The notes beneath the pieces were generated by a model that had not been told where the DNA came from, searched no databases, and was given only the letters and a program-made list of their open reading frames with translations. Source: Pseudomonadota bacterium (lineage in GTDB: Bacteria > Pseudomonadota > Gammaproteobacteria > Burkholderiales > Burkholderiaceae_C). Taken from it: a DNA stretch of 64,000 bases. A program made the translations under genes and the position numbers. Where the stretch lies: the NCBI GenBank assembly GCA_020161775.1, contig JAIUOW010000005.1, positions 16,209-80,208 on the forward strand, written 5' to 3'. This document shows positions 27,325 through 53,147 of this stretch, piece by piece (the first letter of the stretch is position 1; each line of letters opens with the position of its first letter).

Positions 27325-29666
27325 GTCGGGGTGGCCTGCACCGGGATGGCGTTGGCGTAGCCGATCTGGGGCCAGTAGGCCGGCGGGATTTGTGGAAGCA
27401 GTGCCCGGTGTTCGGCCGCTGGCGCCAGTTCCATCGCCTTCTTGAAGGACTCCAGCGCTTTTGCGGGTTGCTTCAGGCCCGTGGTGTACATGTTGCCCAG
27501 CTGGATATAGCCGTTGACCTGGGTGGTGGGCCAGTCCTTCATGCGCAGGTCCATGGCTTTCAGTGCCAGGTCGAAATCCCCTCCGCGCCAGCCCAGGATG
27601 AAGGCGGCGTTGACCAGGTCGTAGTCGTAGATGTTGTTGGCCAGCGCGTCGCGCGCCATCGCCAGGGCCTTGGGCTCCTGGCCCGTGCGGCTGAGCAAAA
27701 CGACCTCCAGCGAACGCACCGATGAAGCCTTGGGCTGGATCTTTTTGGAACGGTCGAGGTATTCGAGTGCCTTGTCAGCGTTGCCCATAGAAGCGTAGCC
27801 ACGCGCGATGTTGGACATGATGGCCACCACATAAGGACGCGAGGACACCACGGTTTCCCATACCCAGGTGGCGTTCTTCCAGTCACCCCACTTGGCCAGC
27901 TCATCGGCCACCATGGGCGTGATCTTGCGGTAGTGCGGATTGATGTCCGTGCCTTCCTTGATCAGGCGCAGCATGTCGGCCTTGGGCTTGTCCCACTTCG
28001 GGTTGTGGTAATCGCCAGACTGCGAGATGGTCAGTGCGATCTTGGTCGCCTTGACGATCTTGCTTTCACATTCGGCCGCTTGCTGGGTGATATAGGCTGC
28101 CAGCGCCAGGCAGACCATGGTGCCCACGGCCAGCCCCTGGGAGAACGCAGGCCGCCAGTTCAGGCGCATGGCTGCGGTGTAGCCCCGGTAGCCCAACCGC
28201 GCATCGGATGCCGCAAGGATCGCCAGGCACAGGGCGAACAAGGCGCCCGTGCTCGCCATGCGCCAGGGAAAGCCGACGTTGCTGACGATGAACAGCGCCA
28301 GCAGCCCTGTCATCGCGACCGCCCTCGCAGGCGCCTCGGCCTGACCTTCGGTGGAGCGGTCGCGCAGCGTCTGCCAGGCTGCCCTCAGCAGATAGGCAAA
28401 CAGCAGCAGCAGGAAGAGCCATCCGACCAGGCCGTACTCGGCCAGCAACTGGAGGAATTCGTTGTGGACGTAATAGTCGGTTTCCAGCTGCGCGCCTTCG
28501 ACCTGGTACAGGGGAATGTCAGCTTCCCATGAGCCCGCGCCAACACCCGTCAGGGGACGCGTCTGGATGATGCGCGCGGTAGCCTTCCACATCACGAAGC
28601 GCACGCCCAGCGAGCCGTCCGCGATATTGATCTTGGCGGTGCGCTTGAATCCGCGCTCCAGGGCGGTCAGTCCCTTGCCTTCGGCACGGTTTTCCTCGAT
28701 CAGCTTGGGGTTGTTGGTGGAAATCATGCCCAGACCGACGACCGTGGCCAGCAAGACGCCAATGGCAACAATGCGCTTGCCCGCGTCCCAGTGGTAGAAC
28801 GCGAATTGCCGCCGGTACAGAAAGCCGATCACAGGCAGCAGCACCAGCAATTGCAGCCACATGGCTGTCATGGCGCCACGCGTGCCCGTCATGAGGATGG
28901 CAACGACCACAAAGGCCGATGTGAATGCCAGCAAGGCAATCTGGCTGGATGACCGGGAACGCGCGAGCAACAATGCGCTGAATGCGATCGTGCAGGTCGC
29001 GAATTCGGCGAAGAAGTTGCGGTTGACAAAGGTGGATGCCGGGTTGGGGCCCTGCGGAAAGTACCTGAAATCAATCCAGAACTGCAGCGCCGCCCACAGC
29101 GAGGCCACCACGGCCCCCCAGTGAATGCCCCAAACCACCAGCATGGTCCTGTCGCGGTTGAGCGTGTTCATGCCCAGCCACAGCAGCACACTGAAGATGA
29201 ACCAGCGTATGGCCTCCACCCCGCTCAGGTACGTATGGGACCAGGCCATGCTGCCCAGGGCATAGACCATCAGGGCCAGCGGCAACCACATCAACGCGTG
29301 CCAGCGCAGTCCGTCGCGCCGGTTGCGCTGCTGCCAGAAGAAAAGCAGCGCCGCGCCCAGCGCGCCAAACGACACCACGATGGACTTCAGCGTGTCCTGC
29401 AGCATTTCCTCGTGGGGGACACCCAGCGCCGGGGCAAAGAAAATCGTCAGCGCAAAGATCAGCGCGGTCCAGTCGCCGCGGGTGATCTCCAGCGGCAGTG
29501 CGCCCGCAGCGGCCTGCGGCTTGTAGCGCGACACCGGTGGCACCGCCCCGCCCATGGGGGCGCTGGGGGCGGTGGTCCACGCCGCCGTGCCGTTGCCAAA
29601 GTCCGGGCGGCTTGCATTTGGATTGCCGGACGACCTGTCAGGCGCGTTGCGTTTTTTCTTGGCCAT
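27300..29666 (-). CDS. O-antigen-ligase-family membrane protein with TPR tail
   Basis: A 788-residue protein. After a polar N-terminus of about 60 residues come about ten membrane helices, a large periplasmic loop and the Wzy_C/ligase region: GTRGAMTAMWLQL, VMWKATARIIQTRPLTGVGAG, and YYVHNEFLQLLAEYGLVGWL with the conserved His. The last 220 residues are TPR-like (YNPHYRKITPM… NADKALEYLDRSKKI, KQPAKALESFKKAMELAP). This family includes O-antigen ligases and PglL-type oligosaccharyltransferases that move lipid-linked glycan to protein. Which it does here is not clear; the TPR tail favours a protein acceptor or partner. It faces ygfZ. Confidence 0.85.
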   Translation of the reverse strand: MAKKKRNAPDRSSGNPNASRPDFGNGTAAWTTAPSAPMGGAVPPVSRYKPQAAAGALPLEITRGDWTALIFALTIFFAPALGVPHEEMLQDTLKSIVVSFGALGAALLFFWQQRNRRDGLRWHALMWLPLALMVYALGSMAWSHTYLSGVEAIRWFIFSVLLWLGMNTLNRDRTMLVVWGIHWGAVVASLWAALQFWIDFRYFPQGPNPASTFVNRNFFAEFATCTIAFSALLLARSRSSSQIALLAFTSAFVVVAILMTGTRGAMTAMWLQLLVLLPVIGFLYRRQFAFYHWDAGKRIVAIGVLLATVVGLGMISTNNPKLIEENRAEGKGLTALERGFKRTAKINIADGSLGVRFVMWKATARIIQTRPLTGVGAGSWEADIPLYQVEGAQLETDYYVHNEFLQLLAEYGLVGWLFLLLLFAYLLRAAWQTLRDRSTEGQAEAPARAVAMTGLLALFIVSNVGFPWRMASTGALFALCLAILAASDARLGYRGYTAAMRLNWRPAFSQGLAVGTMVCLALAAYITQQAAECESKIVKATKIALTISQSGDYHNPKWDKPKADMLRLIKEGTDINPHYRKITPMVADELAKWGDWKNATWVWETVVSSRPYVVAIMSNIARGYASMGNADKALEYLDRSKKIQPKASSVRSLEVVLLSRTGQEPKALAMARDALANNIYDYDLVNAAFILGWRGGDFDLALKAMDLRMKDWPTTQVNGYIQLGNMYTTGLKQPAKALESFKKAMELAPAAEHRALLPQIPPAYWPQIGYANAIPVQATPTQTSSASK

Positions 29667-32817: not shown

Positions 32818-33585
32818 ATGAAACTGGTGATCCTGGCCGGCGGCCTCGGAACCCGCATCAGCGAGGAGACGACGCTCAAGCCCAAGCCCATGGTGGAGAT
32901 CGGCGGACGGCCCATCCTCTGGCACATCATGAAGATGTACGCAAGCCATGGCATCAACGACTTCATCTTCTGCCTGGGCTATAAGGGTTATGTGATCAAG
33001 GAGTTCTTTGCGAACTACTTCCTTCACACCTCCGACGTCACCTTTGACCTCGCCAACAACAGCATGGACGTGCACCAGCGCCACGCGGAACCCTGGCGCG
33101 TGACGCTGGTGGACACCGGTGAATCCACCATGACGGGCGGGCGCCTTCGCCGCGTCGCCCGCTACCTGGGCGACGACGATTTCTGCTTTACCTACGGCGA
33201 CGGCGTAGCCGACGTGGACGTGTCGGCCCTGGTGCGCTTTCACCGCCAGCACGGCAAGCTTGCCACGCTGACGGCGGTGCAGCCCCCCGGACGGTTTGGT
33301 GTCCTGGACCTCGCCGGCAGCGCGGTGCGCGGGTTCCAGGAAAAGCCCAAGGGCGATGGGGCCTGGGTCAACGGAGGCTTTTTCGTGCTGTCGCCCAAGG
33401 TGGCCAGCCTGGTTGCCGATGACGACTGCGTCTGGGAGCGCGAGCCGCTCGAAACACTGGCCGCCCAGGGCCAGCTGGAGGCGTTCCAGCACCATGGTTT
33501 CTGGCAACCCATGGATACCTTGCGTGACCGCGTCCTGCTGGAGGAACTCTGGGCCACGGGTCGCGCGCCCTGGAAGAACTGGTGA
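32818..33585 (+). CDS. rfbF: Glucose-1-phosphate cytidylyltransferase
   Basis: A 255-residue enzyme that makes CDP-glucose from CTP and glucose-1-phosphate, first step of CDP-6-deoxysugar synthesis. The N-terminal [19 protein letters not shown] with [12 protein letters not shown] is diagnostic of RfbF, and the metal-binding [10 protein letters not shown] is near residue 130. I start at ATG 32818, which begins the nucleotidyl domain; upstream in-frame sequence lies within the previous gene. It overlaps rfbG (GTGA at 33582-33585), so the two are coupled. Confidence 0.96.
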
Positions 33586-34676
33586 GCGCCCTGCCTGACC
33601 CCGGCTTCTGGGCTGGCCGCCGTGTGTTCCTGACCGGGCATACGGGGTTCAAGGGCAGCTGGCTCACGCTGTGGCTGGAGCATCTGGGTGCCACCGTCAC
33701 CGGCTACGCGCTCGCGCCGGACACCCGCCCCAGCCTGTATGACGACGTGCACAGGCAGCCGGGTCATCGCCATCACATTGCCGACATCCGCGACGCCGCA
33801 AGGCTGGCCGAGGCCGTCGCCCAGGCGCAGCCTGAGGTGGTGCTGCACCTGGCCGCGCAGCCGCTGGTGCGCCGTTCCTACCGTGAGCCGGTGCAGACGT
33901 ATTCCACCAACGTCATGGGCACCGTCCATCTGCTCGAAGCCGTGCGCGCCACGCCGGGCGTGCGCGCGGTGGTCGTGGTGACCAGCGACAAAGCCTATGA
34001 GAATACCGGCCAGCCTGGCGGCTACGTTGAAACCGACCGTCTGGGTGGTTATGACCCCTACAGCAACAGCAAGGCCTGCACCGAGCTGGTCGCGCAGGCG
34101 TACCGCAGCTCCTACTTTGAACCTGGCGCCCATGCACGGCACGGGGTGGCCCTGGCCACCGTGCGTGCCGGCAACGTGATTGGCGGAGGCGACTGGGCCG
34201 AGGACCGGCTGGTCCCTGACCTCATGCGCAGCTTTGCCGCGGGGCAGCCCGCCGTCATCCGCTACCCTGGGGCGGTGCGGCCCTGGCAGCATGTGCTGGA
34301 GCCCCTGGGCGGCTACCTGGTACTGGCCCAGCGGCTGGTGCAGGACGGCGCTGCGTGGGGCGAGGCCTGGAATTTTGGCCCCGCCGACAGCGACGCCCGG
34401 CCGGTGTCATGGATTGCCGACCGGCTGGCCAGCCTGTGGGGAGCCGGTGCAAGCTGGCACACCGGGCCGGGCGAACAGCCCCACGAGGCTGCGTACCTGC
34501 GGCTTGACTGCGCCAAGGCCCGCGAGCGGTTGGGCTGGACGCCGCGCTGGTCTCTGGACCAGGCACTGCAGGCCATTGCGGCGTGGCATCACGGCTACAG
34601 CCGTGGTGAAGATGCCCGCCAGCTTTGCCTGGCGCAGGTGCGCGCGTTTACGGCGGCGCCTGGCACGGCACAATAA
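33582..34676 (+). CDS. rfbG: CDP-glucose 4,6-dehydratase
   Basis: A 364-residue SDR-type dehydratase making CDP-4-keto-6-deoxyglucose. The NAD motif is [18 protein letters not shown], the catalytic Tyr-Lys pair is in [14 protein letters not shown], and [16 protein letters not shown] and [14 protein letters not shown] are typical of RfbG. It begins with GTG inside the rfbF stop. Its product is the branch point for dideoxy and branched CDP-sugars. No RfbH (C3 dehydrase) gene follows, so a 3-deoxy sugar is not expected. Confidence 0.96.
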
Positions 34677-34726
34677 CGGGCTTGGGCAATCCAGCCGCAA
34701 CGATTCACCCCCTGTAAAGCGCACTC

Positions 34727-35677
34727 ATGCACCCCTTCAACCTGATCTTCATCTCGGCCATGTACGAAAACGGTGGCAACACGACCCACCGCATGCTGGA
34801 CGGGCACCCGGAGCTGTTCGTGTATCCGTTCGAATCACAGGTTGGCACGGGTTTCAACAACGACTACCTGGCCAGCTACGTCCCCATCCGCTACCGCTGG
34901 CCGGAGTTCCCCATGAATTCCGAGCCGGGAGCGGACTACGAAGCCTTCTGGGACGAAGAACTCAAAACCTACCTGCGCGCGCCCTCTCGCTCCAAGTTCA
35001 AGGACTGCGGACTGGTGATGGACGAGTCCAAACGCAAGGCGCGCTTTGCCGAAATCGTGGCGGAAGTCGGCCGGACCCGGGCGGGCCTGGTGCAGGCGTT
35101 CTTTCGCAGCACCTTCGATACCTGGGAGAACGTCAACCGCACCGGCCGCGAACGTTTTCACGTGGGCTACAACCCGGTGCAGGTGCTGGACACCGAGAAA
35201 ATCCTCTCCGACTTCCCCAACGGCCATGTCATCCACGTGGTGCGCAACCCCTATTCCGGCTACGCAGACCAGTTCCGGCGGCCGTTTCCGCCGCCGCTGG
35301 GGCGCTACGGCCACACCTGGGCGTATTGCCAGATGCTCGCGCTGACCTACCGCGAAAAGTACAAGGGCCACTTCCACATCGTGCGCTTTGAGGACCTGGT
35401 ATCGGACCGCCGCGGCACCGTGACCACCCTGCTGAATGCGCTGGGCCTTGAATTCAGCGAGAAATGCATGGTGCCCTCGTTCAATGGCGTGGAACTCAAG
35501 CAGATCAAGCCCTGGGGCACGATCCGCACGGCCACGCCTGAAGAAAACTTCGCCACCGCCAACGAGCTGTCCGCCCAGGACAAGGCCGGCATTTCGGAGC
35601 TGACCGTGGTGGCGCGCAAGCTGCTGGGCTACAGCCGTTTCATTGAAACCGGCACGGTGGACCCCATCGCGTTCTGA
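34727..35677 (+). CDS. Sulfotransferase-like protein
   Basis: A 316-residue protein related to P-loop sulfotransferases. The N-terminal FISAMYENGGNTTHRMLDGH is a variant 5'-PAPS loop followed by HPELFVYPFESQVGTG. The 3'-phosphate site appears as HVVRNPYSGYADQFRRPF, and FHIVRFEDLVSDRR is the conserved second motif. Such proteins transfer sulfate from PAPS to carbohydrates or lipids. It lies between rfbG and the sugar-operon kinase, which implies modification of the glycan. The P-loop lacks the usual Arg/Lys-x-Gly-Ser/Thr form, so activity needs testing. No PAPS-synthesis gene is in the window. Confidence 0.75.
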   Translation: MHPFNLIFISAMYENGGNTTHRMLDGHPELFVYPFESQVGTGFNNDYLASYVPIRYRWPEFPMNSEPGADYEAFWDEELKTYLRAPSRSKFKDCGLVMDESKRKARFAEIVAEVGRTRAGLVQAFFRSTFDTWENVNRTGRERFHVGYNPVQVLDTEKILSDFPNGHVIHVVRNPYSGYADQFRRPFPPPLGRYGHTWAYCQMLALTYREKYKGHFHIVRFEDLVSDRRGTVTTLLNALGLEFSEKCMVPSFNGVELKQIKPWGTIRTATPEENFATANELSAQDKAGISELTVVARKLLGYSRFIETGTVDPIAF

Positions 35678-35691
35678 CGACCGCGTCCTCC

Positions 35692-36753
35692 ATGACCGAC
35701 GCCCTGGCCCGGCGCATCGAGCTGCACACAGCCCGGATGCGGGCCATGTTCTATCCGAAGAGCGACTTGCCCGCCGGTGACGCGCAACTGCGTGCGCTGC
35801 GCGACATTCCGGCGGCGGCCGTGCTGGCGGCGGCCGGTCCGGTGGCCGGCGGCCCCTGGACCCCACTGCCTGCGCAAGGCACCTTTCACGCGCTGTTTGG
35901 CAATGGGCAGGGTGAAGTCCTGAAGCTCAACAAATGCCCTTCCTTGCTGGAAAACTGGCAGTTGCACGCGGATGCCCTGGTGGCCCGCGCGCTGGCGGCG
36001 GCCGGCCTGCGCTGCGTGCCGGTGCTGTCGGTGGATTGCAGCCGCACTGCGCTGGCCACCGATGCCGAACGCCTGGGGCAGGCACCCGGCCAGCCGCTGG
36101 CGGCATACGACCACGACGACGCGCTGATGTTGCCCCGCCTGGCCATCATGGCGCGCTACCTGCGCGCGGTGCATGCCATCACCGGCCAGGGCTTTGGCTT
36201 TCTGGACATCCGTTCGCAGGCGCTGTCTGGTGCTGGTGCAGGTGCGGGTGCGGGCCCGCTGCGCGGCGTGCACCGCCATTGGGCTGACTACCTCGTCCAG
36301 CAGCTGGACGCCCACCTGGCGATCGTCGCGCGCCACGCTGACGCGACGCCGGCCGAATGCGCCCAGATGGCCGCGCTGCTGCGCGAAGCCTGGCCCGAGC
36401 CCGCACAGCCCAGCCTGCTTCATGGTGATTGCGGCAGCCACAACATCTTTATGGACGGCGACGCGGCAGTGGCCATCGACTGGGAGGACGCCCTGTTGGG
36501 GGACCCCTTGTTTGACCTGGCGTTCTGGGCCAGCTTTCACCCGCAGCGGCGCTGGGCGGTCATGTTCGAGGCCTACTTTGGCCGTCCCTGGACGCCGGAG
36601 CGGACGTTCTGGCGCTATTACCTGCGGGTTGCCCTGTCCAAAAGCGTCCACCGCCGCCGCTTCGGCTACGCCGACGTGGCCGGGCGGCCCCGGGCATCGC
36701 TGCGCATGCAGCAGGCGCTGACGGCGCTGCATCCCACCGGAGCGGCCGCATGA
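35692..36753 (+). CDS. Phosphotransferase of the APH/choline-kinase fold
   Basis: A 353-residue kinase-like protein. The catalytic loop is LLHGDCGSHNIFMDGD (Asp and Asn) and the metal-binding motif is AIDWEDALLGDP. The N-terminal lobe contains EVLKLNKCP, with a likely ATP Lys. The fold is used for aminoglycosides, choline, sugars and 5-methylthioribose. In this operon a sugar or glycan phosphorylation role is more likely than antibiotic resistance. A low-complexity Gly-Ala tract interrupts the protein near residue 180. It overlaps the next gene (ATGA at 36750). Confidence 0.75.
   Translation: MTDALARRIELHTARMRAMFYPKSDLPAGDAQLRALRDIPAAAVLAAAGPVAGGPWTPLPAQGTFHALFGNGQGEVLKLNKCPSLLENWQLHADALVARALAAAGLRCVPVLSVDCSRTALATDAERLGQAPGQPLAAYDHDDALMLPRLAIMARYLRAVHAITGQGFGFLDIRSQALSGAGAGAGAGPLRGVHRHWADYLVQQLDAHLAIVARHADATPAECAQMAALLREAWPEPAQPSLLHGDCGSHNIFMDGDAAVAIDWEDALLGDPLFDLAFWASFHPQRRWAVMFEAYFGRPWTPERTFWRYYLRVALSKSVHRRRFGYADVAGRPRASLRMQQALTALHPTGAAA
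36229..36252 (+). repeat. Short hexanucleotide repeat inside the kinase gene
   Basis: Four units of GGTGCN (GGTGCT, GGTGCA, GGTGCG, GGTGCG) encode a Gly-Ala run in a loop. Because the unit is 6 bp, copy changes keep the frame and would only lengthen or shorten the linker. Confidence 0.8.
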
Positions 36754-37673
36754 AAGTGCTTCTGACCGGTGCCACCGGATTCCTGGGTTCGTGGGTGCTG
36801 GAACAGCTGCTGCAAGGCGGCGACACGGTCGCGGTGCTGCTGCGCGACGGCGCGGACACGTCGCGCATCACGCACTGCCTGGACCGCGTGCACGTCGTGC
36901 GCGGTGATCTGGGCGATATGGCTGGCGCCGCCCCTGCCCTGCGCGCCTGGGCACCGCAGGCGGTGGTGCACCTGGCCTGGGACGGCGTGGCCGGCGCGCA
37001 GCGCAATTCGCCGCGCCAGTGGCGCAATGTCAGTGCCGCGCTTGAACTGGTGGAACTGGCCGCGCAATGCGGCGCCAGACACTGGATCGGTGTCGGCTCG
37101 CAAGCCGAATACGGCCCCTGTGCCAACGTCATCGATGAAAACACGCCCACCCGCCCCACCACGTTGTATGGCGCCAGCAAGCTGGCCACCGGCCAGCTCG
37201 CGCAAGCCCTGTGCGGCCAGTTGGGCCTGCGCTTCGCCTGGCTGCGGCTGTTTTCGTCCTATGGCCCGCGCGACAATCCGTCCTGGCTGATTCCCAGCCT
37301 GATCCTGGCGCTCAAGCGGGGCGAAAGGCCTGCGGTCACGGGTGCGCAGCAGCTGTGGGACTACATCCACGTGGCCGACGCGGCAGCCGCCGTGGTGGCC
37401 GTGCTGCACAGCCCGCACGCGCAGGGCTTCTTCAACCTCGGCTCCGGCAGTGCGCCGCCGCTGCGCCAGGTGATCGAGGCGGTACGCGACCTGGTGGCGC
37501 CGGGCCAGTCCATCGGCTTTGGCGAGGTACCCTACCGGCCAGACCAGGTCATGCACCTGCAGGCTGACATCCGGCGGCTGACCCAGGCCACCGGCTGGCG
37601 TCCGGTGGTGCCGCTGGACGAAGGCCTGCGTTCAACGGTACGGTGGTTCGCACCAGAATCAGGAACATCATGA
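36750..37673 (+). CDS. NAD-dependent sugar epimerase/reductase
   Basis: A 307-residue extended SDR. The NAD motif is VLLTGATGFLGSWVLEQLL, the active-site Tyr-Lys pair is in TTLYGASKLATGQ, and YGPRDNPSWLIPS, DYIHVADAAAAV and FNLGSGSAPPLRQVIEA are family features. It resembles sugar-nucleotide 4-epimerases/4-reductases of CDP- and dTDP-sugar pathways. Between rfbG and the transketolase genes it could reduce or epimerise a CDP-keto sugar before or after chain branching. It is coupled to both neighbours by ATGA overlaps. Confidence 0.88.
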   Translation: MKVLLTGATGFLGSWVLEQLLQGGDTVAVLLRDGADTSRITHCLDRVHVVRGDLGDMAGAAPALRAWAPQAVVHLAWDGVAGAQRNSPRQWRNVSAALELVELAAQCGARHWIGVGSQAEYGPCANVIDENTPTRPTTLYGASKLATGQLAQALCGQLGLRFAWLRLFSSYGPRDNPSWLIPSLILALKRGERPAVTGAQQLWDYIHVADAAAAVVAVLHSPHAQGFFNLGSGSAPPLRQVIEAVRDLVAPGQSIGFGEVPYRPDQVMHLQADIRRLTQATGWRPVVPLDEGLRSTVRWFAPESGTS

Positions 37674-38473
37674 ACAGCCTGGAACTCGCACGCAACATCC
37701 GACTGAGCGCCCTGCGCATGGTGCATGCGGCCAATGCGTCCCATATCGGGTCATGCCTGTCGCTGACGGACATCCTGGCCGTGCTGTATGGCCGGGTCAT
37801 GAAGGTGGACCCAACCCAGCCGGGCTGGGCGGGCCGCGACCGGTTGATCGTCTCCAAGGGCCACGCATCGGCCGCGGTGTATTCCGCGCTGGCCGCGCGG
37901 GGCTTTCTGGATGCGGCCGAGCTCGCCGACTACGGCAAGGACGGCTCGCGCCTGATGGCCCACGTGAGCCACAAGGTACCGGGCGTGGAGATGTCCAGCG
38001 GTTCACTGGGCCATGGCCTGCCCTTCGGCGTGGGCAAGGCGCTGGCCGCCCGCCAGCTGGGCGCGGCGTGGCGTGTGTACGTGCTGCTGTCGGACGGCGA
38101 AATGGACGAAGGCTCCAACTGGGAGGCGCTGATGTTTGCCGCCCATCACGGCCTGGACAACCTCACCGCGGTGATCGACTACAACAAATACCAGAGCCTG
38201 GACACCGTGTCCGCCACGCTGGCGCTGGAGCCGCTGGGTGCCAAGCTGTCGGCGTTTGGCTGGGACGTGGCCGAAGTGGACGGCCATGACCACGACGCGC
38301 TGGCGGAGGCCGTCACACGCGACACCCAGGGGCGCCCGCGCGCGGTGGTGGCCCACACCATCAAGGGCAAGGGCGTGAGCTTCATGGAAGGCAAGGTGGA
38401 ATGGCATTACCGCAGCCCCAATGCGCAGCTGCTCGAACAGGCCCTGGCCGAAGTGGAGCGCGGCCATGCGTAA
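37670..38473 (+). CDS. Transketolase, N-terminal (TPP-binding) subunit
   Basis: A 267-residue protein equal to the TPP-binding half of transketolase. SKGHASAAVYSALA, GSLGHGLPFGVGKALA and the TPP/metal motif LSDGEMDEGSNWEALMFAA … IDYNKYQSLDTV are clear. The start is ATG 37670 overlapping the preceding stop, with AGGA upstream. The partner subunit follows with an 8-bp overlap. Full-length central-metabolism transketolases are single chains of about 660 residues, so this split pair in a glycan operon is probably specialised. It would transfer a two-carbon ketol unit to a sugar-nucleotide ketone; that is inference. Confidence 0.93.
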   Translation: MNSLELARNIRLSALRMVHAANASHIGSCLSLTDILAVLYGRVMKVDPTQPGWAGRDRLIVSKGHASAAVYSALAARGFLDAAELADYGKDGSRLMAHVSHKVPGVEMSSGSLGHGLPFGVGKALAARQLGAAWRVYVLLSDGEMDEGSNWEALMFAAHHGLDNLTAVIDYNKYQSLDTVSATLALEPLGAKLSAFGWDVAEVDGHDHDALAEAVTRDTQGRPRAVVAHTIKGKGVSFMEGKVEWHYRSPNAQLLEQALAEVERGHA

Positions 38474-39341
38474 TGTTTTCATCGAAGAGCTGATCCGGGC
38501 CGCGCAGGACGACCCGCGCGTCGTGCTGGTGGTGGGTGACCTCGGGTTCAGCGTGATCGAACCCTTCGTCACGCGCTTTCCCGGCCGTTTCTACAACGCG
38601 GGTGTGGCAGAGCAGAACATGATGGGCCTGTCCGCGGGCCTGGCATCCGAAGGTTTCCACGTTTTCGCGTACTCCATCGCGAATTTCCCCACTTACCGCT
38701 GCGCGGAGCAGATCCGCAACGACATCGCCTACCAGAACCTGCCGGTCACGGTCGTCACGGTGGGGGGTGGCCTCTCGTATGGCAACCTGGGGTACTCCCA
38801 TCACGCCGTGCAGGACTACGGCCTCATGCGCGGCATGCCCGGCATGCTGATTGCAGCGCCTGGCGATCCGTGGGAGGTGCGCGCCTGCATGCGCTACCTG
38901 CTGGCCCATCCGCAGCCCTCGTACCTGCGCCTGGGCAAGGCTGGCGAGCCGGCGATCCACACCGCCCTGCCCGAGGTGGCTCCGGGCCGCTGGGTGCCGG
39001 TGCGCGCAGGCAGAGCGCATTGCGTGCTGAGCACCGGTGCGCCTTTGCGCCAGGCCCATGAATGGGTGACGGGCAGCGGCCCGCACGCCGGCAGCACGCT
39101 GATGTCCATGCCCCTGTGGAGCATGGCTGCCAAGCCGTTGCAGCCACAGCAGGTGGCGCCCTGGGACCAGGTCACCACCGTCGAAGACCATCTGGCCGAC
39201 TGCGGCTTCGGCTCCTGGATGGCCGAGTCCCTCATGGGGCATGGGGACCTGGCGTCCCGGCTGCGTGTGCGCGCCCTGGACCCCAAGGTGTGCGGCATGG
39301 TCGGCAGCCAGGCTGCCCTGAACGCGGCCGGCGGGCTGTAG
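38466..39341 (+). CDS. Transketolase, C-terminal (pyrimidine-binding) subunit
   Basis: A 291-residue protein equal to the second half of transketolase. The catalytic Glu is in NAGVAEQNMMGLSAGLA; GGLSYGNLGYSHHAVQDYGLMR contains the His side, and the C-terminal domain has VTTVEDHLADCGFGSWMAE. Its start (ATG 38466) overlaps the stop of the N-subunit gene. The two proteins should form one active site at their interface, as in E1 alpha/beta-type enzymes. No other TPP enzyme is encoded nearby. Confidence 0.93.
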   Translation: MRNVFIEELIRAAQDDPRVVLVVGDLGFSVIEPFVTRFPGRFYNAGVAEQNMMGLSAGLASEGFHVFAYSIANFPTYRCAEQIRNDIAYQNLPVTVVTVGGGLSYGNLGYSHHAVQDYGLMRGMPGMLIAAPGDPWEVRACMRYLLAHPQPSYLRLGKAGEPAIHTALPEVAPGRWVPVRAGRAHCVLSTGAPLRQAHEWVTGSGPHAGSTLMSMPLWSMAAKPLQPQQVAPWDQVTTVEDHLADCGFGSWMAESLMGHGDLASRLRVRALDPKVCGMVGSQAALNAAGGL

Positions 39342-39353
39342 GCGGGCTGCGCG

Positions 39354-39713
39354 GTGCCGCAGTTCGTGCGTTTCCTGGCGGTGGGCGTTCTCAATACGGC
39401 GTTTGGCTATGGCGTGTTTGCCGGCCTGGCATGGTCTGGCCTGCCCTATCCCGCAGCCATTGCGGTGGCGACGATCGCCGGGGTGGCCTTCAATTTCTTC
39501 AGCACCGGGCGGCTGGTGTTTGGCCAGGGTGGTGCGCACAGGCTGCCGCGCTTCGTGGCGGTGTACGCGGTGGTGTACTGCGTCAACGTCGCCGCGGTCG
39601 CAGGGCTTTTGCAGCTGGGCCTGAATGTGTACATTGCCAATGCACTGCTGGTGCTCCCGCTGGCGCTTCTGGCCTACGGGCTGCAGCGCCGGTTTGTCTT
39701 TACGCCACCATGA
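39354..39713 (+). CDS. GtrA-family flippase-like membrane protein
   Basis: A 119-residue protein with four membrane helices of the GtrA family (FVRFLAVGVLNTAFGYGVFA at the N-terminus; RFVAVYAVVYCVNVAAV, LQRRFVFTPP at the C-terminus). GtrA is thought to flip lipid-linked sugars such as undecaprenyl-phosphate-glucose. It starts with GTG at 39354 and its stop overlaps the glycosyltransferase ATG (39710-39713). Together they look like the GtrA-GtrB pair of O-antigen modification systems. Confidence 0.9.
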   Translation: MPQFVRFLAVGVLNTAFGYGVFAGLAWSGLPYPAAIAVATIAGVAFNFFSTGRLVFGQGGAHRLPRFVAVYAVVYCVNVAAVAGLLQLGLNVYIANALLVLPLALLAYGLQRRFVFTPP

Positions 39714-40660
39714 AAAAAACCATCACCGTCGTCACCCCCTGCTTCAATGAAGAAGACAACGTCGAGGAGGTCTACCGCCAGACCGCGGCGGTCTTTGACG
39801 CGCTGCCGCAAGTGCAGCACGAGCACCTGTTCATTGACAACTGCTCCACCGACCGCACGGTCGAGCTGCTGCGTGGCCTCGCGGCGCGTGACAGCCGGGT
39901 GAAGGTCATTCTCAATGCGCGCAATTTCGGGCAGGTACGTTCGCCCTACTACGGGCTCATGCAGGCGCGCGGCGATGCCGCCGTGCTGCTGGTGGCCGAT
40001 CTGCAGGACCCACCGGCTATGCTGGCCGACTTTGTGCGCCACTGGCTTGACGGCGCCGCGCTGGTGGTGGGCGTCAAGCCGGCTTCCCGCGAGAACCGGC
40101 TCATGTTTGCCGTGCGCCGCCTGTATTACCGCCTGGTGACGCGCATCGCCGATGTGCGCCTGATCCAGAACTTTACCGGCTTTGGCCTGTACGACCGCCG
40201 CGTGCTGGACGTGCTGCGGGCGATTGACGACCCCTACCCCTACCTGCGCGGCCTGGTGTCCGAGGTCGGCTTTGAGCCTGTCCAGATTCCCTACACCCAG
40301 CCGCGCCGGGCACGGGGTATCACCAAGAACAACTTCTACTCGCTGTACGACTTTGCGATGCTGGGCATCACCTCCCACTCGCGCGTGCCGCTGCGGCTGG
40401 CCACGATGGCGGGGTTTGCGCTGTCGGGCCTGAGCCTGCTGGTCTCGCTCGGCTACCTGCTGGTCAAGCTGCTGTTCTGGAACAGTTTCTCGCTGGGCCT
40501 GGCGCCCATCCTGATCGGCGTGTTCTTCTTTGCGTCGGTCCAGCTGTTTTTCATCGGGCTGCTGGGTGAATACGTGGGCGCCATCCTCACGCATGTCGCC
40601 AGGCGCCCCCTGGTGGTGGAGCGCGAGCGCATCAACTACGGCGACTTGCCTAAACCCTGA
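39710..40660 (+). CDS. Glycosyltransferase family 2, GtrB/DPM1-like
   Basis: A 316-residue membrane-anchored glycosyltransferase. The GT-A core has VVTPCFNEEDNVEEVYRQ, a DxD-like LLVADLQDPPAML, and TGFGLYDRRVLDVL; two C-terminal membrane helices (about 225-250 and 265-290) are followed by LLGEYVGAILTHV. GtrB enzymes move a sugar from a nucleotide donor to undecaprenyl phosphate. I start at ATG 39710, which begins the GT domain. It is the last gene of the operon; the convergent dioxygenase gene overlaps its end by 11 bp. Confidence 0.93.
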   Translation: MKKTITVVTPCFNEEDNVEEVYRQTAAVFDALPQVQHEHLFIDNCSTDRTVELLRGLAARDSRVKVILNARNFGQVRSPYYGLMQARGDAAVLLVADLQDPPAMLADFVRHWLDGAALVVGVKPASRENRLMFAVRRLYYRLVTRIADVRLIQNFTGFGLYDRRVLDVLRAIDDPYPYLRGLVSEVGFEPVQIPYTQPRRARGITKNNFYSLYDFAMLGITSHSRVPLRLATMAGFALSGLSLLVSLGYLLVKLLFWNSFSLGLAPILIGVFFFASVQLFFIGLLGEYVGAILTHVARRPLVVERERINYGDLPKP

Positions 40661-41543
40661 ACAGCGCGCGGTTGACCCACGGGTCCAGGCCCTGGGGCAA
40701 CGGCATGGTGGGCTCGCCCGGCCCTTGCGGCACCCAGGGCGTCAGGGCATAAAGAACTGAAAAAATCAGCCGGCGGCCTTCCGTGGCCAGCAAGGGGCGG
40801 TGAATGCCCCATGTGTCTTCCAGGAACACCGTGCCAGCCTTGCCCGTCATCGTCAGGATGTCCTGCGCGGGGAAAGAGGCCCGGATGTCCTCGTCGCTGA
40901 TGCTGCCGCGCCGCGTGAACTGAGCGCTGCGGTGCGAGCCCCGCACAAAGCTGTGTGCGCCGTTGCGCTCGCTGGTATCGGTCAGGTAGGCGAAAAGTTT
41001 GACGAACCGCAGATCGTCCACGTCACGGTGGTAGGCGTCGTCAAAGTGGATCTGGCCGCCGTAGTGCTCGCCCAGCGTCCACCAGGCCTGGAATGATGCA
41101 ATCGTGGGCCGCGTGCCCAGCACCGCGCCCACGGCGTCCAGCACCAGCGGTGAATTGGCCAGGGCCACCAACTGCGCACAGCCCAGCAGGTCTTCGCTGC
41201 GGTAATAGAGCTTGGTGCTGGTGCGGGGGATGGGCCCGTCAATGTCGTAGGCGGACACCCCGTCGTACTGGTCGATTACCGGTCGGCCCTTCAGGTGCGC
41301 ATGCACCGAGGCCACGGCCTGCGGGCTCAGCGTGCCCGCGGGCAGGAAACCCACGCCGTCCTCGCGCAGGGCGCGCGCCATGTCATCGCCCTGGGGTTGC
41401 GGCGAGGGCCTGGCCGGGCGCAACCCTGCCACCGCGGTGACTAGCGAGCCCAGCCCCGCGCGCAGCGTGTTGTTGCGCACGGCCTTCTGGGCGTAGTAGT
41501 AGGCAAGCGTGGGCTGCTGGCGGATGTTGGCAAGGACGGACAT
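40650..41543 (-). CDS. Phytanoyl-CoA-dioxygenase-like Fe(II)/2-oxoglutarate enzyme
   Basis: A 297-residue putative oxygenase. The metal facial triad is visible as HFDDAYHRD (HxD) and a distal WGIHRPLL, with Arg of GRRLIFSVL fitting the 2-oxoglutarate site. PhyH-type enzymes hydroxylate lipids, sugars and peptides. I start at ATG 41543, before MSVLANIRQQ; the frame extends further upstream without support. It is 11 bp after the large membrane protein gene, forming a leftward operon that faces the sugar operon. Confidence 0.82.
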   Translation of the reverse strand: MSVLANIRQQPTLAYYYAQKAVRNNTLRAGLGSLVTAVAGLRPARPSPQPQGDDMARALREDGVGFLPAGTLSPQAVASVHAHLKGRPVIDQYDGVSAYDIDGPIPRTSTKLYYRSEDLLGCAQLVALANSPLVLDAVGAVLGTRPTIASFQAWWTLGEHYGGQIHFDDAYHRDVDDLRFVKLFAYLTDTSERNGAHSFVRGSHRSAQFTRRGSISDEDIRASFPAQDILTMTGKAGTVFLEDTWGIHRPLLATEGRRLIFSVLYALTPWVPQGPGEPTMPLPQGLDPWVNRALFRV

Positions 41544-41554: not shown

Positions 41555-43243
41555 TCAGGGAATGAGCTTTTTGTCGGGCAACGGGTTGGGCAGGACGCGC
41601 CCGGGCTGGCAATCCGTGCCCAAGGCGTCGATTGTCGCAGCCGGCACGCCGGCCGGGCGCACGCCCGCCAGCAGAACTTGCGTTGCATCAAAAGGCGGCA
41701 GCAGCGCCCGATAGCGGCTGATGCAGTCCTCATTGACCAGGCCGTCAATTCCCAGGAAATGCTGCATGGCCGGATGGGTCAGTCCGCCGGTCTGGCGCAG
41801 GTACGCGTGGTACTGCCACTGCATGTCCAGGCGATAGGCCTCCACGGCGTGAAAGCTGGGCCAGTAAGGCGCCTTACCCCAGGCCTCGCGCAGGATCATG
41901 CCGGCGCTCTGGGTCCAGACCAGCCAGTCGGTCACTGGGCGGTAAGACAGTTCGATCACGCCCGGCGGCGCGGGGGGCAGGCTGCGCAGGCCATGGACCA
42001 GGCTCTGTTCAGCGTATTGCGTCTGCAGCTTGTTCCAGTAGGCGGGCAGCACCCACGCCAGCATCATGGCCAGCGTCAGGGCAAACACCCCGCGTGGCGG
42101 CTTGCCCGGCGCGCCGCCCAGCGCGTGCCACGCCAGCCGCCCTGTTGCCCAGGCCAGCAGGCCCATGGCCGCCCCATACAGCAGCGCGTGGCGCCCGGAA
42201 CTGTTGGCCCATGTCGGCGCCAGCGGCCCGCCATGGGCCGCGCGCAGCACCTGCTCGGTCAGGCCATCGCCAATGGACAGCAGCGTGAAAAGCGGCGGCC
42301 CCTTGCCCACCATCACATACGGGAATGCCGCCGCCGCGCACAGGAAGGCCGTGCCGGCCAGCATCGGTCCATGCGCGCCCAGCGCGGCACGCGCGCGCTG
42401 CAAGTCCAGCCGGGGCCAGGTGCCACGCGCGGCCACGCAGGCGGCGGCGATCAGAACGGCCCCCAACGGGATGACGCCCCAGGTCAGGAACATCAGCGTG
42501 GCCTTGACGATGCGGCGCAGATCGTCGGGCCGCCAGGGTTTGAGCAACTGGTTGTATTCGGTGAAGATCTGCGCGGGCGGCAGCAGCCAGCGCATGGTCA
42601 TGTACACGCCGGCCGCGGTGGCCAGCAGCAGCGCACTGGCTGCCAGCCGTGTGCGAAACCGGCCGCCCAGGCGCACCAGCCACACGAGCTCCAGGGCCAG
42701 CGCGAACACCAGGTTGGAATTGAGCTGGAACGACACCGCCAGCACCGCCCAGCCCAGGACCCGCATGCCAGCGGACGCCTGCCGGTACAGCCGGTGGCCG
42801 AAAAACACCAGCCATACACACAACAGGATGGGCACGATCTGGGAAGACACCAGCGTGTAAAGCACCGGCGACGCGCTGCCCAGCAAAGCCGCCTGGCGCG
42901 CCTGGGCCGCCGGCAGGCCGAACACCGTGTGGGCCAGGCAACGCAACTCCAGGTACAGGCCCGCAAGCAGCAATGTGAGGGTGAGCTTGACGAACACCAG
43001 GTAAGGCACGCCCACGGCCTGGCCCAATGCAATGCAGGCCTTGTGAAAGGCCAGCGCGACGGGCCAGTTCGCATCCCGCAGCGCGGCCTCAATGCCGTCG
43101 TGCAGGCCCGTGGCCGCGGCAAATGCGATGGTGGCGCCGTCGAACTGGTCACGCATCACCAGCCAGTGCGGGCCAATCAACAGCACCAGCACGGCCACCG
43201 TCAGCCATGCCGGGTGCCGCTCTTGCACGGCCCCGGCCGTCAC
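41555..43243 (-). CDS. Large multi-pass membrane protein, possible Gtr-type glycosyltransferase
   Basis: A 562-residue protein with about ten or eleven membrane helices, from the N-terminal VAVLVLLIGPHWLVM to about residue 400, then a polar C-terminal domain of about 150 residues. An acidic segment follows TM1 (RDQFDGATI), as in membrane GT-C enzymes where Asp is catalytic. The total size and layout resemble serotype-conversion Gtr proteins, but I recognise no diagnostic motif. GtrA and GtrB genes lie close by, so it could be the third part of that system. It begins with GTG overlapping the patatin stop. Confidence 0.7.
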   Translation of the reverse strand: MTAGAVQERHPAWLTVAVLVLLIGPHWLVMRDQFDGATIAFAAATGLHDGIEAALRDANWPVALAFHKACIALGQAVGVPYLVFVKLTLTLLLAGLYLELRCLAHTVFGLPAAQARQAALLGSASPVLYTLVSSQIVPILLCVWLVFFGHRLYRQASAGMRVLGWAVLAVSFQLNSNLVFALALELVWLVRLGGRFRTRLAASALLLATAAGVYMTMRWLLPPAQIFTEYNQLLKPWRPDDLRRIVKATLMFLTWGVIPLGAVLIAAACVAARGTWPRLDLQRARAALGAHGPMLAGTAFLCAAAAFPYVMVGKGPPLFTLLSIGDGLTEQVLRAAHGGPLAPTWANSSGRHALLYGAAMGLLAWATGRLAWHALGGAPGKPPRGVFALTLAMMLAWVLPAYWNKLQTQYAEQSLVHGLRSLPPAPPGVIELSYRPVTDWLVWTQSAGMILREAWGKAPYWPSFHAVEAYRLDMQWQYHAYLRQTGGLTHPAMQHFLGIDGLVNEDCISRYRALLPPFDATQVLLAGVRPAGVPAATIDALGTDCQPGRVLPNPLPDKKLIP

Positions 43244-44334
43244 AGCGCCTCCACGCGGCTCACGTCAGCCTGCGCCACCCATTGCGCAAACTCATCCGCC
43301 AGCTGCGCGCTGGCCGCCACGGCCGCGCTCCAGGCCTTCACGCGCGCGCGCAGGTCGGTGCCGTAGCGCACGAAATCATTGCGGTCGGGCAGCTTGCCGT
43401 TGGGCAGCGTGCTGACCCATTGCGGGTCAGGCGCCAGCACCACCATGTTGTCCAGGAAGTCCGTGGCGCCGTGGCGCCAGCGCAGACCCTTGTCCAGCCA
43501 GCCGGGCACCACGGCTTTCTGGAAGTGGGGGTACAGCACGATGCCCGCGCCCTGCCCTGGCTGCGCGCCCGGCGGCTGGCGGTAGTCCAGGTGCAGGTGG
43601 TAGTCGGTGATGCCGCCGTCCCAGTACGCCCCACGCGGCGCGCCCGGGATGTCATGGATCGCCTGCAGCACGAACGGGATGGAGCAACTGGCCTGCAGCG
43701 CGGCATTGAAATTGGCTTCGCTCAATGGCACCTGGCGCGTGCGGTAGTCGCGCGTGCCAAACGGCAGGGCCGCCCCCGCGCTTGAAAACACCACCCGCTC
43801 CAGCCAGGCACCCATGGCGCGCCGGTTGACCGTGTTGGTCAGGAAGGCGCCCAGGTAGCCCAGCGGCGTGCGCACGCCGTGCTCGCGCCCCAGCAGGTGG
43901 CGCCCGCGCGAGGTGACGATGTGCAGCCGGTAGCGGTCGTGGCCCAGTACCTCGCCCAACCGTCCGCCATAGAAGGCCCGCAGGTTCTCGCCAAACCGCT
44001 CGCTCACATGGGCTGCCGTGGGCCGCTTCTGGCCGGGCGCCAGGGCGTAGTCCTGGTGGATGTAGTCGTGCTCCAGGCGGCTGAATGCCGCCACCGGATC
44101 GTTCAGGCAGGCGGTGGCCATGCGCCAGGCACCGATGGAGGCGCCCACCAGATGAACTGGCTGGCCAGAGGCGGCCAGCCAGTCTCCGAATATGAACCGG
44201 TCCAGCGGCCCCAGCACCAGGCCCTTGGGGCCGCCAGCGGCGCCGGGCACCACGCCGATATCGCCGGGCTGCAGGCCGTTTTGCCCGATATGGGCACGGG
44301 CGCGCGGGCCCGCATAGATGCGCAACGCTCTCAT
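43240..44334 (-). CDS. Patatin-like phospholipase
   Basis: A 364-residue patatin-family acyl hydrolase. The oxyanion loop is GAAGGPKGLVLG, the nucleophile Ser lies in LVGASIGAWRMA (GxSxG), and the dyad Asp is in YWDGGITDYH. It should cleave acyl chains from phospholipids or glycolipids at the membrane. I start at ATG 44334, which begins the conserved domain; a longer frame runs into the region before tex. It is upstream of, and coupled to, the membrane protein gene (GTGA overlap at 43240-43243). No signal peptide is seen. Confidence 0.88.
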   Translation of the reverse strand: MRALRIYAGPRARAHIGQNGLQPGDIGVVPGAAGGPKGLVLGPLDRFIFGDWLAASGQPVHLVGASIGAWRMATACLNDPVAAFSRLEHDYIHQDYALAPGQKRPTAAHVSERFGENLRAFYGGRLGEVLGHDRYRLHIVTSRGRHLLGREHGVRTPLGYLGAFLTNTVNRRAMGAWLERVVFSSAGAALPFGTRDYRTRQVPLSEANFNAALQASCSIPFVLQAIHDIPGAPRGAYWDGGITDYHLHLDYRQPPGAQPGQGAGIVLYPHFQKAVVPGWLDKGLRWRHGATDFLDNMVVLAPDPQWVSTLPNGKLPDRNDFVRYGTDLRARVKAWSAAVAASAQLADEFAQWVAQADVSRVEAL

Positions 44335-44425
44335 GGCGCCGATTGTCGCAAACCGGGGTGGTGCCACCCGCGCCCGGCGCGTCAGTCTTCGGCCGCGAGC
44401 CGGATCTTGAGCGCCAGGCCCGGGC

Positions 44426-46774
44426 TCACCCCCCGCCGCGCAGCTTCTGGAAGGCCTGCGCCATGGCCGACTGGCCCGGCGCCTGGGCCGGCGCGGCCCG
44501 CTGGCCGCGCGCCAGGCCTTCAAACCGGTTGTCGCGCGGGCCGCCGTCATGGCGGCGCGCCGGCGGCGCATCCAGCTTCATGGTCAGGCCAATGCGCTTG
44601 CGCGCCACGTCCACCTCGGTCACGCGCACCTTCACGATATCGCCGGTCTTGACCACCTCGCGCGCATCGTTCACGAACTTGTGGCTCAGCTGGCTCACAT
44701 GGACCAGGCCGTCCTGGTGCACGCCGACGTCAATGAACGCGCCGAACGCCGCCACGTTGCTGACCGTGCCCTCCAGCACCATGCCTTCTTTCAGGTCCTT
44801 GATGTCGTCCACGCCGTCGTTGAAGCGCGCCACCTTGAAATCGGGGCGGGGGTCGCGCCCGGGCTTTTCCAGCTCGCCCAGGATGTCCTTGACCGTGATG
44901 ACGCCGAATTTGTCGTTGGCAAACAGCTCGGGCCTGAGCGTCTTGAGCATGTCGGCGCGGCCCATCAGTTCCTGCACGGGTTTGCCGGTTTTGGCCATCA
45001 TGGCCTCCACCACGGGGTAGGTCTCGGGGTGCACGCCAGTCATGTCCAGCGGGTTGTCGCCGCCGCGGATGCGCAGGAAGCCCGCGCTTTGTTCAAAGGT
45101 CTTGGCGCCCAGACCGCTCACGTCCATGAGCTGGCGGCGGTTCTTGAACGCGCCGTTGGCCTCGCGCCAGCGCACCACCGCCCTGGCCACCGTGCCCGAC
45201 AGGCCGGACACGCGCGACAGCAGCGGCACGCTGGCCGTGTTCAGGTCCACGCCCACCGAGTTCACGCAGTCCTCCACCACGGCGTCCAGCGTGCGGGCCA
45301 GCTCGCCCTGGTTCACGTCGTGCTGGTACTGGCCCACGCCAATGGACTTGGGGTCGATCTTGACCAGCTCGGCCAGCGGGTCCTGCAGCCGCCGGGCAAT
45401 GCTGGCCGCGCCGCGCAGGCTCACGTCCACGTCGGGCATTTCCTGGCTGGCGAATTCGCTGGCGCTGTACACCGACGCCCCGGCTTCGCTGACCACTACC
45501 TTTTCGATGGTCATCTGCGCCTTGGCCGCCATCTTGATGAGCTCGCCCGCCAGCTTGTCGGTCTCGCGGCTGGCCGTGCCGTTGCCGATGGCAATCAGGT
45601 TCACGCCATGCTTTTCACACAGCTTGGCCAGCGTGAACAGCGCGCCGTCCCAGTCGCGCCGCGGCTCGTGCGGGTACACGGTGGCGGTGTCCACCAGCTT
45701 GCCGGTAGCGTCCACCACGGCGACCTTCACGCCGGTGCGGATGCCGGGGTCCAGCCCCATCACCACGCGCGGGCCGGCCGGCGCGGCCAGCAGCAGGTCG
45801 CGCAGGTTGTCGGCAAACACCTTGATCGCGACTTTCTCGGCGTCTTCGCGCAGGCGGGTGAACAGGTCGCGTTCGGTGGACAGGCTGAGCTTGACGCGCC
45901 AGGTCCAGGCCACGCATTTGCGGATCAGGTCGTCGGCGCGGCGGCCCGCATGGCTCCAGCCCAGGTGCAGGGCGATCTTGCCTTCGGCAAGGCCGGGCTT
46001 GCCTGGCTCCGGCTCAACCGGCAGAACGAGCTTGGCGTCCAGGATTTCCAGCTGCCGCCCGCGAAACACCGCCAGCGCCCGGTGCGACGGCACCCGGCCG
46101 ATGGGTTCGTCGTAGTCGAAGTAGTCGCGGAACTTGGCGACGTCGGGGTTGTTCTCGTCCTTGCCGGTGGCCAGGCTGCTCTTGAACAGGCCTTCGGACC
46201 AGAGCCATTCGCGCAGGCGCTGCACCAGGGCGGCGTCCTCGGCCCAGCGCTCGGACAGGATGTCGCGCACGCCGTCCAGCACCGCCGGCACGGTGGAAAA
46301 GTCCGCGCCGGGCTTGCCGTCGTCCAGCACCTCGGGCGGGCGCGTAAAGGCGGCGGCCTCGGCGGCCGGGTCCAGCGTCGGGTCGGCAAACAGCTTGTCG
46401 GCCAGCGGCTCGATACCGGACTCGCGGGCCATCTGGCCCTTGGTGCGGCGCTTCTGCTTGAACGGCAGGTAGATGTCTTCCAGTTCCTGCTTGGTCGGCG
46501 CGTTGGCGATCGCGGCGCGCAGCGCGGGCGTGAGCTTGCCCTGCTCGTCAATGCTGCGCAGGACCGCCTCACGCCGCTCTTCCAGTTCGCGCAGGTAGGT
46601 CAGGCGGTATTCCAGCTCACGCAGCTGGGTATCGTCCAGCCCGCCGGTGGCCTCCTTGCGGTAACGGGCGATGAAGGGCACGGTGGCCCCGCCGTCCAGC
46701 AGCTGCACGGCAGCCGTGACCTGGTGAACCTGGACCCTGATTTCTGCGGCGATCTGGCCGATGATTTTCTGCAT
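44426..46774 (-). CDS. tex: Transcription accessory protein Tex
   Basis: A 782-residue RNA-binding protein. The N-terminal helical domain starts IIGQIAAEIRVQVHQVTAAVQLL, the YqgF-like domain holds VMGLDPGIRTGVKVAVVD, helix-hairpin-helix units follow (LNTASVPLLSRVSGLSGTVA), and the C-terminal S1 domain spans about 640-715 (GMVLEGTVSNVAAFGAFIDV). Tex affects transcription and pathogen gene expression in several proteobacteria. I start at ATG 46774, which matches family N-termini. There is no clear ribosome site. Nearest divergent neighbour is the LapA-like gene at 46921. Confidence 0.96.
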   Translation of the reverse strand: MQKIIGQIAAEIRVQVHQVTAAVQLLDGGATVPFIARYRKEATGGLDDTQLRELEYRLTYLRELEERREAVLRSIDEQGKLTPALRAAIANAPTKQELEDIYLPFKQKRRTKGQMARESGIEPLADKLFADPTLDPAAEAAAFTRPPEVLDDGKPGADFSTVPAVLDGVRDILSERWAEDAALVQRLREWLWSEGLFKSSLATGKDENNPDVAKFRDYFDYDEPIGRVPSHRALAVFRGRQLEILDAKLVLPVEPEPGKPGLAEGKIALHLGWSHAGRRADDLIRKCVAWTWRVKLSLSTERDLFTRLREDAEKVAIKVFADNLRDLLLAAPAGPRVVMGLDPGIRTGVKVAVVDATGKLVDTATVYPHEPRRDWDGALFTLAKLCEKHGVNLIAIGNGTASRETDKLAGELIKMAAKAQMTIEKVVVSEAGASVYSASEFASQEMPDVDVSLRGAASIARRLQDPLAELVKIDPKSIGVGQYQHDVNQGELARTLDAVVEDCVNSVGVDLNTASVPLLSRVSGLSGTVARAVVRWREANGAFKNRRQLMDVSGLGAKTFEQSAGFLRIRGGDNPLDMTGVHPETYPVVEAMMAKTGKPVQELMGRADMLKTLRPELFANDKFGVITVKDILGELEKPGRDPRPDFKVARFNDGVDDIKDLKEGMVLEGTVSNVAAFGAFIDVGVHQDGLVHVSQLSHKFVNDAREVVKTGDIVKVRVTEVDVARKRIGLTMKLDAPPARRHDGGPRDNRFEGLARGQRAAPAQAPGQSAMAQAFQKLRGGG

Positions 46775-48365: not shown

Positions 48366-53147
<4,782 letters not shown>

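Follow-up and report, generated by a model that had tools for sequence, protein, structure and literature searches.

A nine-gene operon in a 64,000-nucleotide stretch of DNA from a Pseudomonadota bacterium of the Burkholderiaceae_C (contig JAIUOW010000005.1; the whole stretch is hereafter the window) probably directs synthesis of a cytidine diphosphate (CDP)-linked, C-branched 6-deoxy sugar for a surface glycan, with a split transketolase in the role that YerE plays in yersiniose clusters. The chemistry is predicted from sequence. The operon occupies positions 32818-40660 (+ strand), and its central genes encode RfbF and RfbG; a short-chain dehydrogenase/reductase (SDR); and the two transketolase chains, TKN and TKC. 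The pathway would be of a known type, its key enzyme replaced by one from another family.

The enzymes that supply the keto sugar were correctly recognized in a first-pass annotation of this DNA. RfbF (32818..33585, +), the glucose-1-phosphate cytidylyltransferase, scores 471 bits with TIGR02623 (cut-off 300), and RfbG (33582..34676, +), the CDP-glucose 4,6-dehydratase, scores 488.5 bits with TIGR02622 (cut-off 278); both are thus above curated cut-offs for the enzymes of CDP-4-keto-6-deoxyglucose formation. The extended SDR (36750..37673, +; PF01370, Epimerase family) carries GxxGxxG at residue 7 and YxxxK at residue 140. It is followed by TKN (37670..38473, +; PF00456, 139 bits), the N-terminal, thiamine diphosphate (ThDP)-binding chain, and by TKC (38466..39341, +; PF02779, 98 bits), the C-terminal chain. 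Families and spacing bear out the coupling of SDR and two-subunit transketolase to RfbF and RfbG in one operon. The five-gene set that the annotation had named is present and linked, and it is incomplete: the nine genes include a sulfotransferase, a kinase, GtrA, and a family 2 glycosyltransferase (GT2).

Yersiniose biosynthesis is the nearest known scheme. Passages of a 2025 review describe YerE as taking activated acetaldehyde from pyruvate and adding it to a CDP-keto sugar (PMC12247030); the yersiniose A gene set is given as ddhA-D, yerE, and yerF (PMC4509608), and its ketoreduction was called uncharacterized in 2016 (PMC4753412). As far as these passages describe it, the yersiniose A pathway resembles that of the window in its RfbF/RfbG-type enzymes, in a ThDP enzyme for the two-carbon branch, and in a subsequent SDR. 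The window differs in having a split transketolase rather than a YerE-like decarboxylase, in lacking RfbH, and in its additional sulfotransferase and kinase.

In the proposed pathway, RfbF and RfbG would form CDP-4-keto-6-deoxyglucose, as their curated family models indicate. The TKN-TKC heteromer would then use a thiamine carbanion bearing a two-carbon ketol, drawn from a ketose or from hydroxypyruvate, to attack the sugar ketone as YerE does; gene context backs this choice of acceptor. The product would carry a tertiary alcohol and a hydroxyacetyl branch, presumably at C-4, whose ketone the SDR would reduce to leave a dihydroxyethyl branch. The 3-hydroxyl would be retained because RfbH is absent. 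GT2 would place the sugar on polyprenyl phosphate and GtrA would flip it, and the sulfotransferase and kinase may decorate it. Much of this scheme had been anticipated by the first-pass annotation, in which the transketolase pair acts on a CDP-keto sugar. The comparative evidence supports a YerE-like branching role for the pair; the hydroxyacetyl unit and reduction of the branch by the SDR stand as predictions. That role is argued from five sources: occupancy of the same gene slot; partner SDRs in common; the lack of any locus with both enzymes; an SDR-TKN fusion; and a GT2 that tracks RfbG.

In a phylum sample of 398 genomes, 97 had a TIGR02622 match with an E value of 1e-80 or lower, 95 of them above its cut-off. 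The survey comprised 95 loci: of 97 places over the cut-off, among them the window and L054, L172 and L174 fell under the RfbG model made for the analysis, and two places under the cut-off (G607, G013) lie outside it. (Score thresholds for the neighbor-gene, RfbG, and SDR models were set for this analysis.) Within 8 kb of RfbG, nine loci, the window included, have the transketolase pair, 12 have a YerE-like enzyme, none has both, and 74 have neither. When RfbG loci found through the transketolase are added, for a total of 108, the corresponding numbers are 22, 12, 0, and 74 (one-sided Fisher p 0.055); restricting the count to the 40 with RfbH gives 13, 10, 0, and 17 (p 0.010). YerE-like proteins of five loci (L086, L090, L098, L104, and L143) carry the TPP_enzyme N, M, and C domains in one chain, whereas the window chains have transketolase domains only.

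The partner SDRs connect the two kinds of locus. Two models were built: SDR_A, from the proteins directly after YerE in L090, L086, and L104 (lowest accepted score 405 bits, next 27); and SDR_B, from the SDRs of L143, where it directly follows YerE, and L139 (lowest accepted 244, next 177). The window SDR is of the SDR_B type, scoring 384 bits with this model built from YerE loci alone. Matches to either model occur in 14 of 22 loci with RfbG and the transketolase, in five of 12 with RfbG and YerE (all five being seeds), in two of 74 with RfbG only, in one of 37 with the transketolase only (L177), and in none of 21 others. In the RfbG-first sample, the YerE-derived models match eight of nine transketolase loci versus two of the 74 that lack both enzymes (p 1e-8; counting three same-genus loci once, 6e-7). 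The clearest swap is L110, whose order RfbF-RfbG-RfbH-TKN-TKC-SDR_A parallels RfbF-RfbG-RfbH-YerE-SDR_A in L090: TKN-TKC stands in the slot held by YerE. The L110 SDR_A protein is 51% identical to the post-YerE SDR of L090 and 61% identical to that of L104.

In 18 of the 22 RfbG-linked loci, the gene immediately before TKN encodes RfbH, RfbG, or an SDR, or else TKN is fused to such a protein. A Paenibacillus cellulosilyticus plasmid encodes rfbF-rfbG-methyltransferase, then a 635-residue SDR+TKN fusion protein, then TKC; a Methylovirgula plasmid has the order rfbF-rfbG-SDR-rfbH-TKN-TKC. Relatives of the window TKC (E 1e-30 or better) were found in 34 of 399 genomes of the order; the 11 further members of the window's family in that sample had none. 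A scan of named genomes yielded six loci, from Methylococcales, an uncultured Burkholderiales bacterium, Polynucleobacter, a betaproteobacterium, and two Pandoraea. In every one of these loci, RfbF and RfbG are encoded close to TKC, on the opposite strand in Polynucleobacter, and both Pandoraea loci share the complete gene order of the window (RfbF, RfbG, sulfotransferase, kinase, SDR, TKN, TKC, GtrA, GT2).

Linkage to RfbG also follows transketolase phylogeny. A tree of 77 pairs, rooted with canonical transketolase as outgroup, was made by a quick method, and the program flagged long branches. Twenty-two pairs are RfbG-linked; two contigs of limited reach, L070 (short, with RfbF and the pair but no RfbG on it) and L177 (at a contig edge), were scored as not linked. 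The linkage label changes five times on the tree, versus a mean of 19.4 for shuffled labels, and none of 500 shuffles was as low. The window falls within a starred set of 12, comprising 11 RfbG-linked pairs and L177. Because the RfbG-linked pairs cluster, their linkage is not a matter of chance.

Active-site columns were read from an alignment against the canonical, one-piece transketolase encoded elsewhere in the same genome (521.6 bits), with 64 of the 77 pairs tallied; 23 rows are considered here, 12 of the window's clade and 11 other RfbG-linked pairs. Residue numbers and roles are those of the Escherichia coli enzyme, in which His461 binds phosphate and H26, H66, H100, and H261 bind the donor. 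The columns of H26, H66, H261, E411, H473, and the GDG Asp are unchanged in all 23 rows; that of H100 is unchanged throughout the window's clade (12 rows) and in seven of the 11 others, and the window pair keeps all seven residues. The phosphate site is different. All 23 rows, window included, have Gly in place of His461; Asp469 is likewise replaced in all 23, by Leu in the window; and Lys substitutes for Arg520 throughout the window's clade (12 rows) and in seven of the 11 others. Arg358 is retained by the whole clade, window included, and by 10 of the 11 others; the Ser385 column falls in an alignment gap. Three features of canonical phosphosugar transketolases are therefore changed in the window pair (to Gly, Lys, and Leu), and loss of His461 argues against an ordinary phosphosugar acceptor, insofar as residues predict function. 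The nearest solved relatives of both chains come from the split transketolase of Carboxydothermus hydrogenoformans, which has the same two-chain layout: 6yak for TKN (E 7.9e-67) and 6yaj for TKC (E 4.3e-35). In 6yaj the phosphate-site column holds His, followed by GED; the window has Gly, followed by GNL.

The first-pass annotation remarked that RfbH and its dependent genes are missing from the operon, and for RfbH this is true genome-wide: the best match to NF011936 scores 264 bits, versus a cut-off of 423. Nor was RfbH found above the cut-off in the five genomes of L075, L076, L155, L158, and L160; L099 has RfbH elsewhere in its genome. As a defining mark of the system, however, lack of RfbH is ruled out, since 13 of the 22 loci with RfbG and the transketolase have RfbH no more than 8 kb away. 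Proteins of 538 to 592 residues that precede TKN in L071, L038, L073, and L074 were considered as YerE on the basis of length, and rejected. Those of L071 and L038 are RfbH with an over-long start. Those of L073 (7547-9202, +) and L074 (7422-9200, +) are DegT-type aminotransferases situated between RfbH and TKN, extended by about 190-230 residues at the N terminus and scoring below the cut-off of every NCBIfam model listed.

Absence of RfbH partly coincides with two further genes. Between RfbG and the SDR, the window encodes a sulfotransferase (34727..35677, +; PF13469) and an APH-type small-molecule kinase (35692..36753, +; PF01636). Relatives of the sulfotransferase occur in six of 22 loci with RfbG and the transketolase, one of 74 with RfbG only, and none of 37 with the transketolase only. 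Among the first group, they occur in six of nine loci without RfbH within 8 kb and in none of 13 with it (p 0.001), these six representing only three lineages (the window, Pandoraea, and one other genus). Weak relatives of the kinase adjoin the sulfotransferase in L075, L076, L155, L158, and L160; the two recur together only in transketolase loci without RfbH. As a lead, a retained 3-hydroxyl and sulfation or phosphorylation may go together. Bradyrhizose as a product of loci like L155, L158, and L160 is a lead that found no support; PMC4743980 does not contain the word transketolase. A further sulfotransferase relative, 60% identical, is encoded in L164, which has RfbF-RfbG and no transketolase pair.

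The last two genes form a Gtr-type pair overlapping by four bases: a GtrA-type membrane protein (39354..39713, +; PF04138) and a GT2 enzyme (39710..40660, +; PF00535) that is ArnC/PgfS-like, scoring 183 bits with the PgfS model (cut-off 500) and 101 bits with an ArnC-type model. GT2 relatives scoring at least 240 bits are present in 11 of 22 loci with RfbG and the transketolase, two of 12 with RfbG and YerE, four of 74 with RfbG only, none of 37 with the transketolase only, and one of 21 others. A search of the 399 order genomes with GT2 alone found relatives at E 1e-60 in nine, the window's included. Eight of these encode RfbG at most about 10 kb away on one contig with GT2, the ninth (G177) being without RfbG; for comparison, the rate in the phylum sample is the 97 in 398 given above. 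Since GT2 relatives track RfbG, GT2 presumably uses the CDP-sugar. Family and linkage together suggest that it transfers this sugar onto polyprenyl phosphate, with GtrA as the flippase for the lipid-linked product.

Other interpretations of the transketolase pair deserve weighing. It might instead add acetyl from pyruvate, like YerE and 1-deoxyxylulose-5-phosphate synthase (DXS), giving a 1-hydroxyethyl branch as in a 3-hydroxy yersiniose. The same SDR families do serve YerE and transketolase clusters, and when the predicted TKC structure (from seven sequences; mean predicted local distance difference test score 78.9, predicted template-modeling score 0.82, residues 102-111 below 50 on the former scale) was compared with known folds, DXS chains ranked next after 6yaj. 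This route is nonetheless unlikely: TKN scores 265 bits with the transketolase model versus 22 with that for DXS, and the four donor-site histidines are kept. At the other extreme, the pair might be an ordinary pentose-phosphate transketolase that is in the cluster by chance. It belongs to the true transketolase family and keeps the catalytic residues, yet the genome has its canonical transketolase elsewhere, the phosphate site is altered at His461 and Arg520, and RfbG linkage clusters on the tree, all of which make this scarcely credible; the separate enzyme and the altered site were grounds for its rejection.

Two sugars might be made side by side, RfbF, RfbG, and the SDR forming a plain CDP-6-deoxyhexose while the transketolase pair forms a different precursor. 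Transketolase pairs are found in clusters and in whole tree groups that lack RfbG, and the SDR family is broad; set against this are the SDR-TKN fusion, the SDRs common to YerE and transketolase clusters, and the RfbH-TKN-TKC-SDR_A order, so that separate pathways are decidedly unlikely. Finally, the pair could act on a CDP-sugar at C-3 after isomerization, or, once transfer has taken place, on a keto sugar bound to lipid or polymer. Dehydrogenase-type enzymes produce C-3 as well as C-4 branches, according to the passages cited from PMC12247030. Neither an isomerase nor a second dehydrogenase was recognized in the operon, however, and comparison with YerE indicates the RfbG-type 4-ketone as acceptor, which renders this variant highly improbable.

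Branching of a CDP-4-keto sugar by the transketolase pair also has evidence to contend with. The support is genomic and comparative, and the transketolase chemistry is itself a prediction. DXS, next after 6yaj among the fold matches, uses pyruvate. The His461 column is Gly or Ala in all 41 rows of three transketolase groups without RfbG (nine, 18, and 14 rows), so this change does not single out CDP-sugars as acceptors. Mutual exclusion of transketolase and YerE is by itself weak: suggestive, not proof. The SDR comparison rests on SDRs of YerE loci, not on a true YerF sequence, and eight RfbG-linked loci match neither SDR model (L037, L038, L049, L073, L074, L075, L076, and L122); L122 and the two Pandoraea loci are among the non-matching cases. 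Moreover, some split transketolases have no RfbG link: one on an Azospirillum plasmid (L081) adjoins two B12-binding proteins, of which one is a radical SAM protein; a Streptomyces pair is beside LysW-type genes; TKC on a Solidesulfovibrio plasmid (L203) is beside pseB/pseC and an APH-type kinase; and an Erwinia pair has no sugar-nucleotide genes nearby. The contexts of L081 and L203 indicate that other sugar pathways may use such pairs.

All nine genes lie on one strand in a tight array. The intervals are as follows, negative values denoting overlaps: RfbF-RfbG, -4 bases; RfbG-sulfotransferase, 50; sulfotransferase-kinase, 14; kinase-SDR, -4; SDR-TKN, -4; TKN-TKC, -8; TKC-GtrA, 12; and GtrA-GT2, -4 (range -8 to 50). 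An iron alcohol dehydrogenase (693 bits with a 4-hydroxybutyrate dehydrogenase model) ends 46 bases upstream and is probably separate in function. Directly past the operon, on the opposite strand, is a PhyH-type dioxygenase (40650-41543, -). Next comes a 562-residue membrane protein (41555-43243, -) with seven hydrophobic stretches in a simple scan; it matches no Pfam or NCBIfam model, lacks relatives among the other loci compared, and is a candidate for the final, GtrS-type glycosyltransferase of the lipid-linked sugar. A Wzy_C O-antigen-ligase-type protein with C-terminal TPR repeats (27300-29666, -), encoded near the operon, is a possible user of the sugar. Further features are a protein with a patatin match under threshold (43240-44571, -); a large CHASE/multi-PAS hybrid histidine kinase with receiver and Hpt domains (48366-53147, -); and a protein with a Mu-type transposase C domain (18835-20907, -), adjoining a dip in G+C (0.554 at 20000-21999, versus 0.647-0.719 in the remaining 2-kb steps up to 49999).

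Transketolases have been proposed for sugar branching elsewhere. The cited review assigns keto-sugar branching to decarboxylase-type and keto-acid-dehydrogenase-type ThDP enzymes, transketolases being only proposed; it counts 13 putative transketolase sequences, which all come from Streptomycetes and of which none has been characterized in vitro (PMC12247030). The proposals concern the split transketolases of miharamycin and amipurimycin biosynthesis in Streptomyces, which are suggested to transfer hydroxyacetyl to a keto sugar (PMC12247030). By description they resemble the window pair as split enzymes for keto-sugar branching, and differ in belonging to antibiotic clusters, for which the passages tell of no CDP-sugar context. 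Rif15, of rifamycin biosynthesis, is a precedent, again by description, for a two-subunit transketolase that attacks a ketone: in vitro it transfers a two-carbon ketol from a ketose to the ketone of a non-phosphorylated acceptor, although there an ansamycin serves as acceptor and an ester is formed (passages in PMC6002545). The keto-acid-dehydrogenase type of avilamycin and paulomycin biosynthesis likewise comprises two-subunit ThDP enzymes that branch keto sugars, but it represents another ThDP superfamily, takes pyruvate as donor, and serves antibiotic clusters (passages in PMC12247030 and PMC4753412). Among the literature matches listed, which did not cover the underlying survey, Krug et al. 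2024, or Steitz et al. 2022, no paper assigns a transketolase to a branching pathway for CDP-sugars or O-antigen.

More broadly, the split transketolase may be a modular substitute for YerE in surface-polysaccharide clusters of several bacterial groups, adding hydroxyacetyl to CDP-4-keto sugars; in the RfbH-less kind, exemplified by the window, the product would be a 6-deoxy sugar with a 3-hydroxyl and a dihydroxyethyl branch, subsequently sulfated or phosphorylated. For this wider proposal the balance is even. Natural exchanges between transketolase and YerE, partnered by the same SDRs and with a well-defined acceptor, make keto-sugar branching by a transketolase directly testable. If true, branching of a nucleotide sugar would be shown for a transketolase for the first time, and a new sugar would be added. 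An active enzyme would yield tertiary alcohols whose branch is hydroxylated, and would indicate undescribed branched sugars in bacterial surface glycans.

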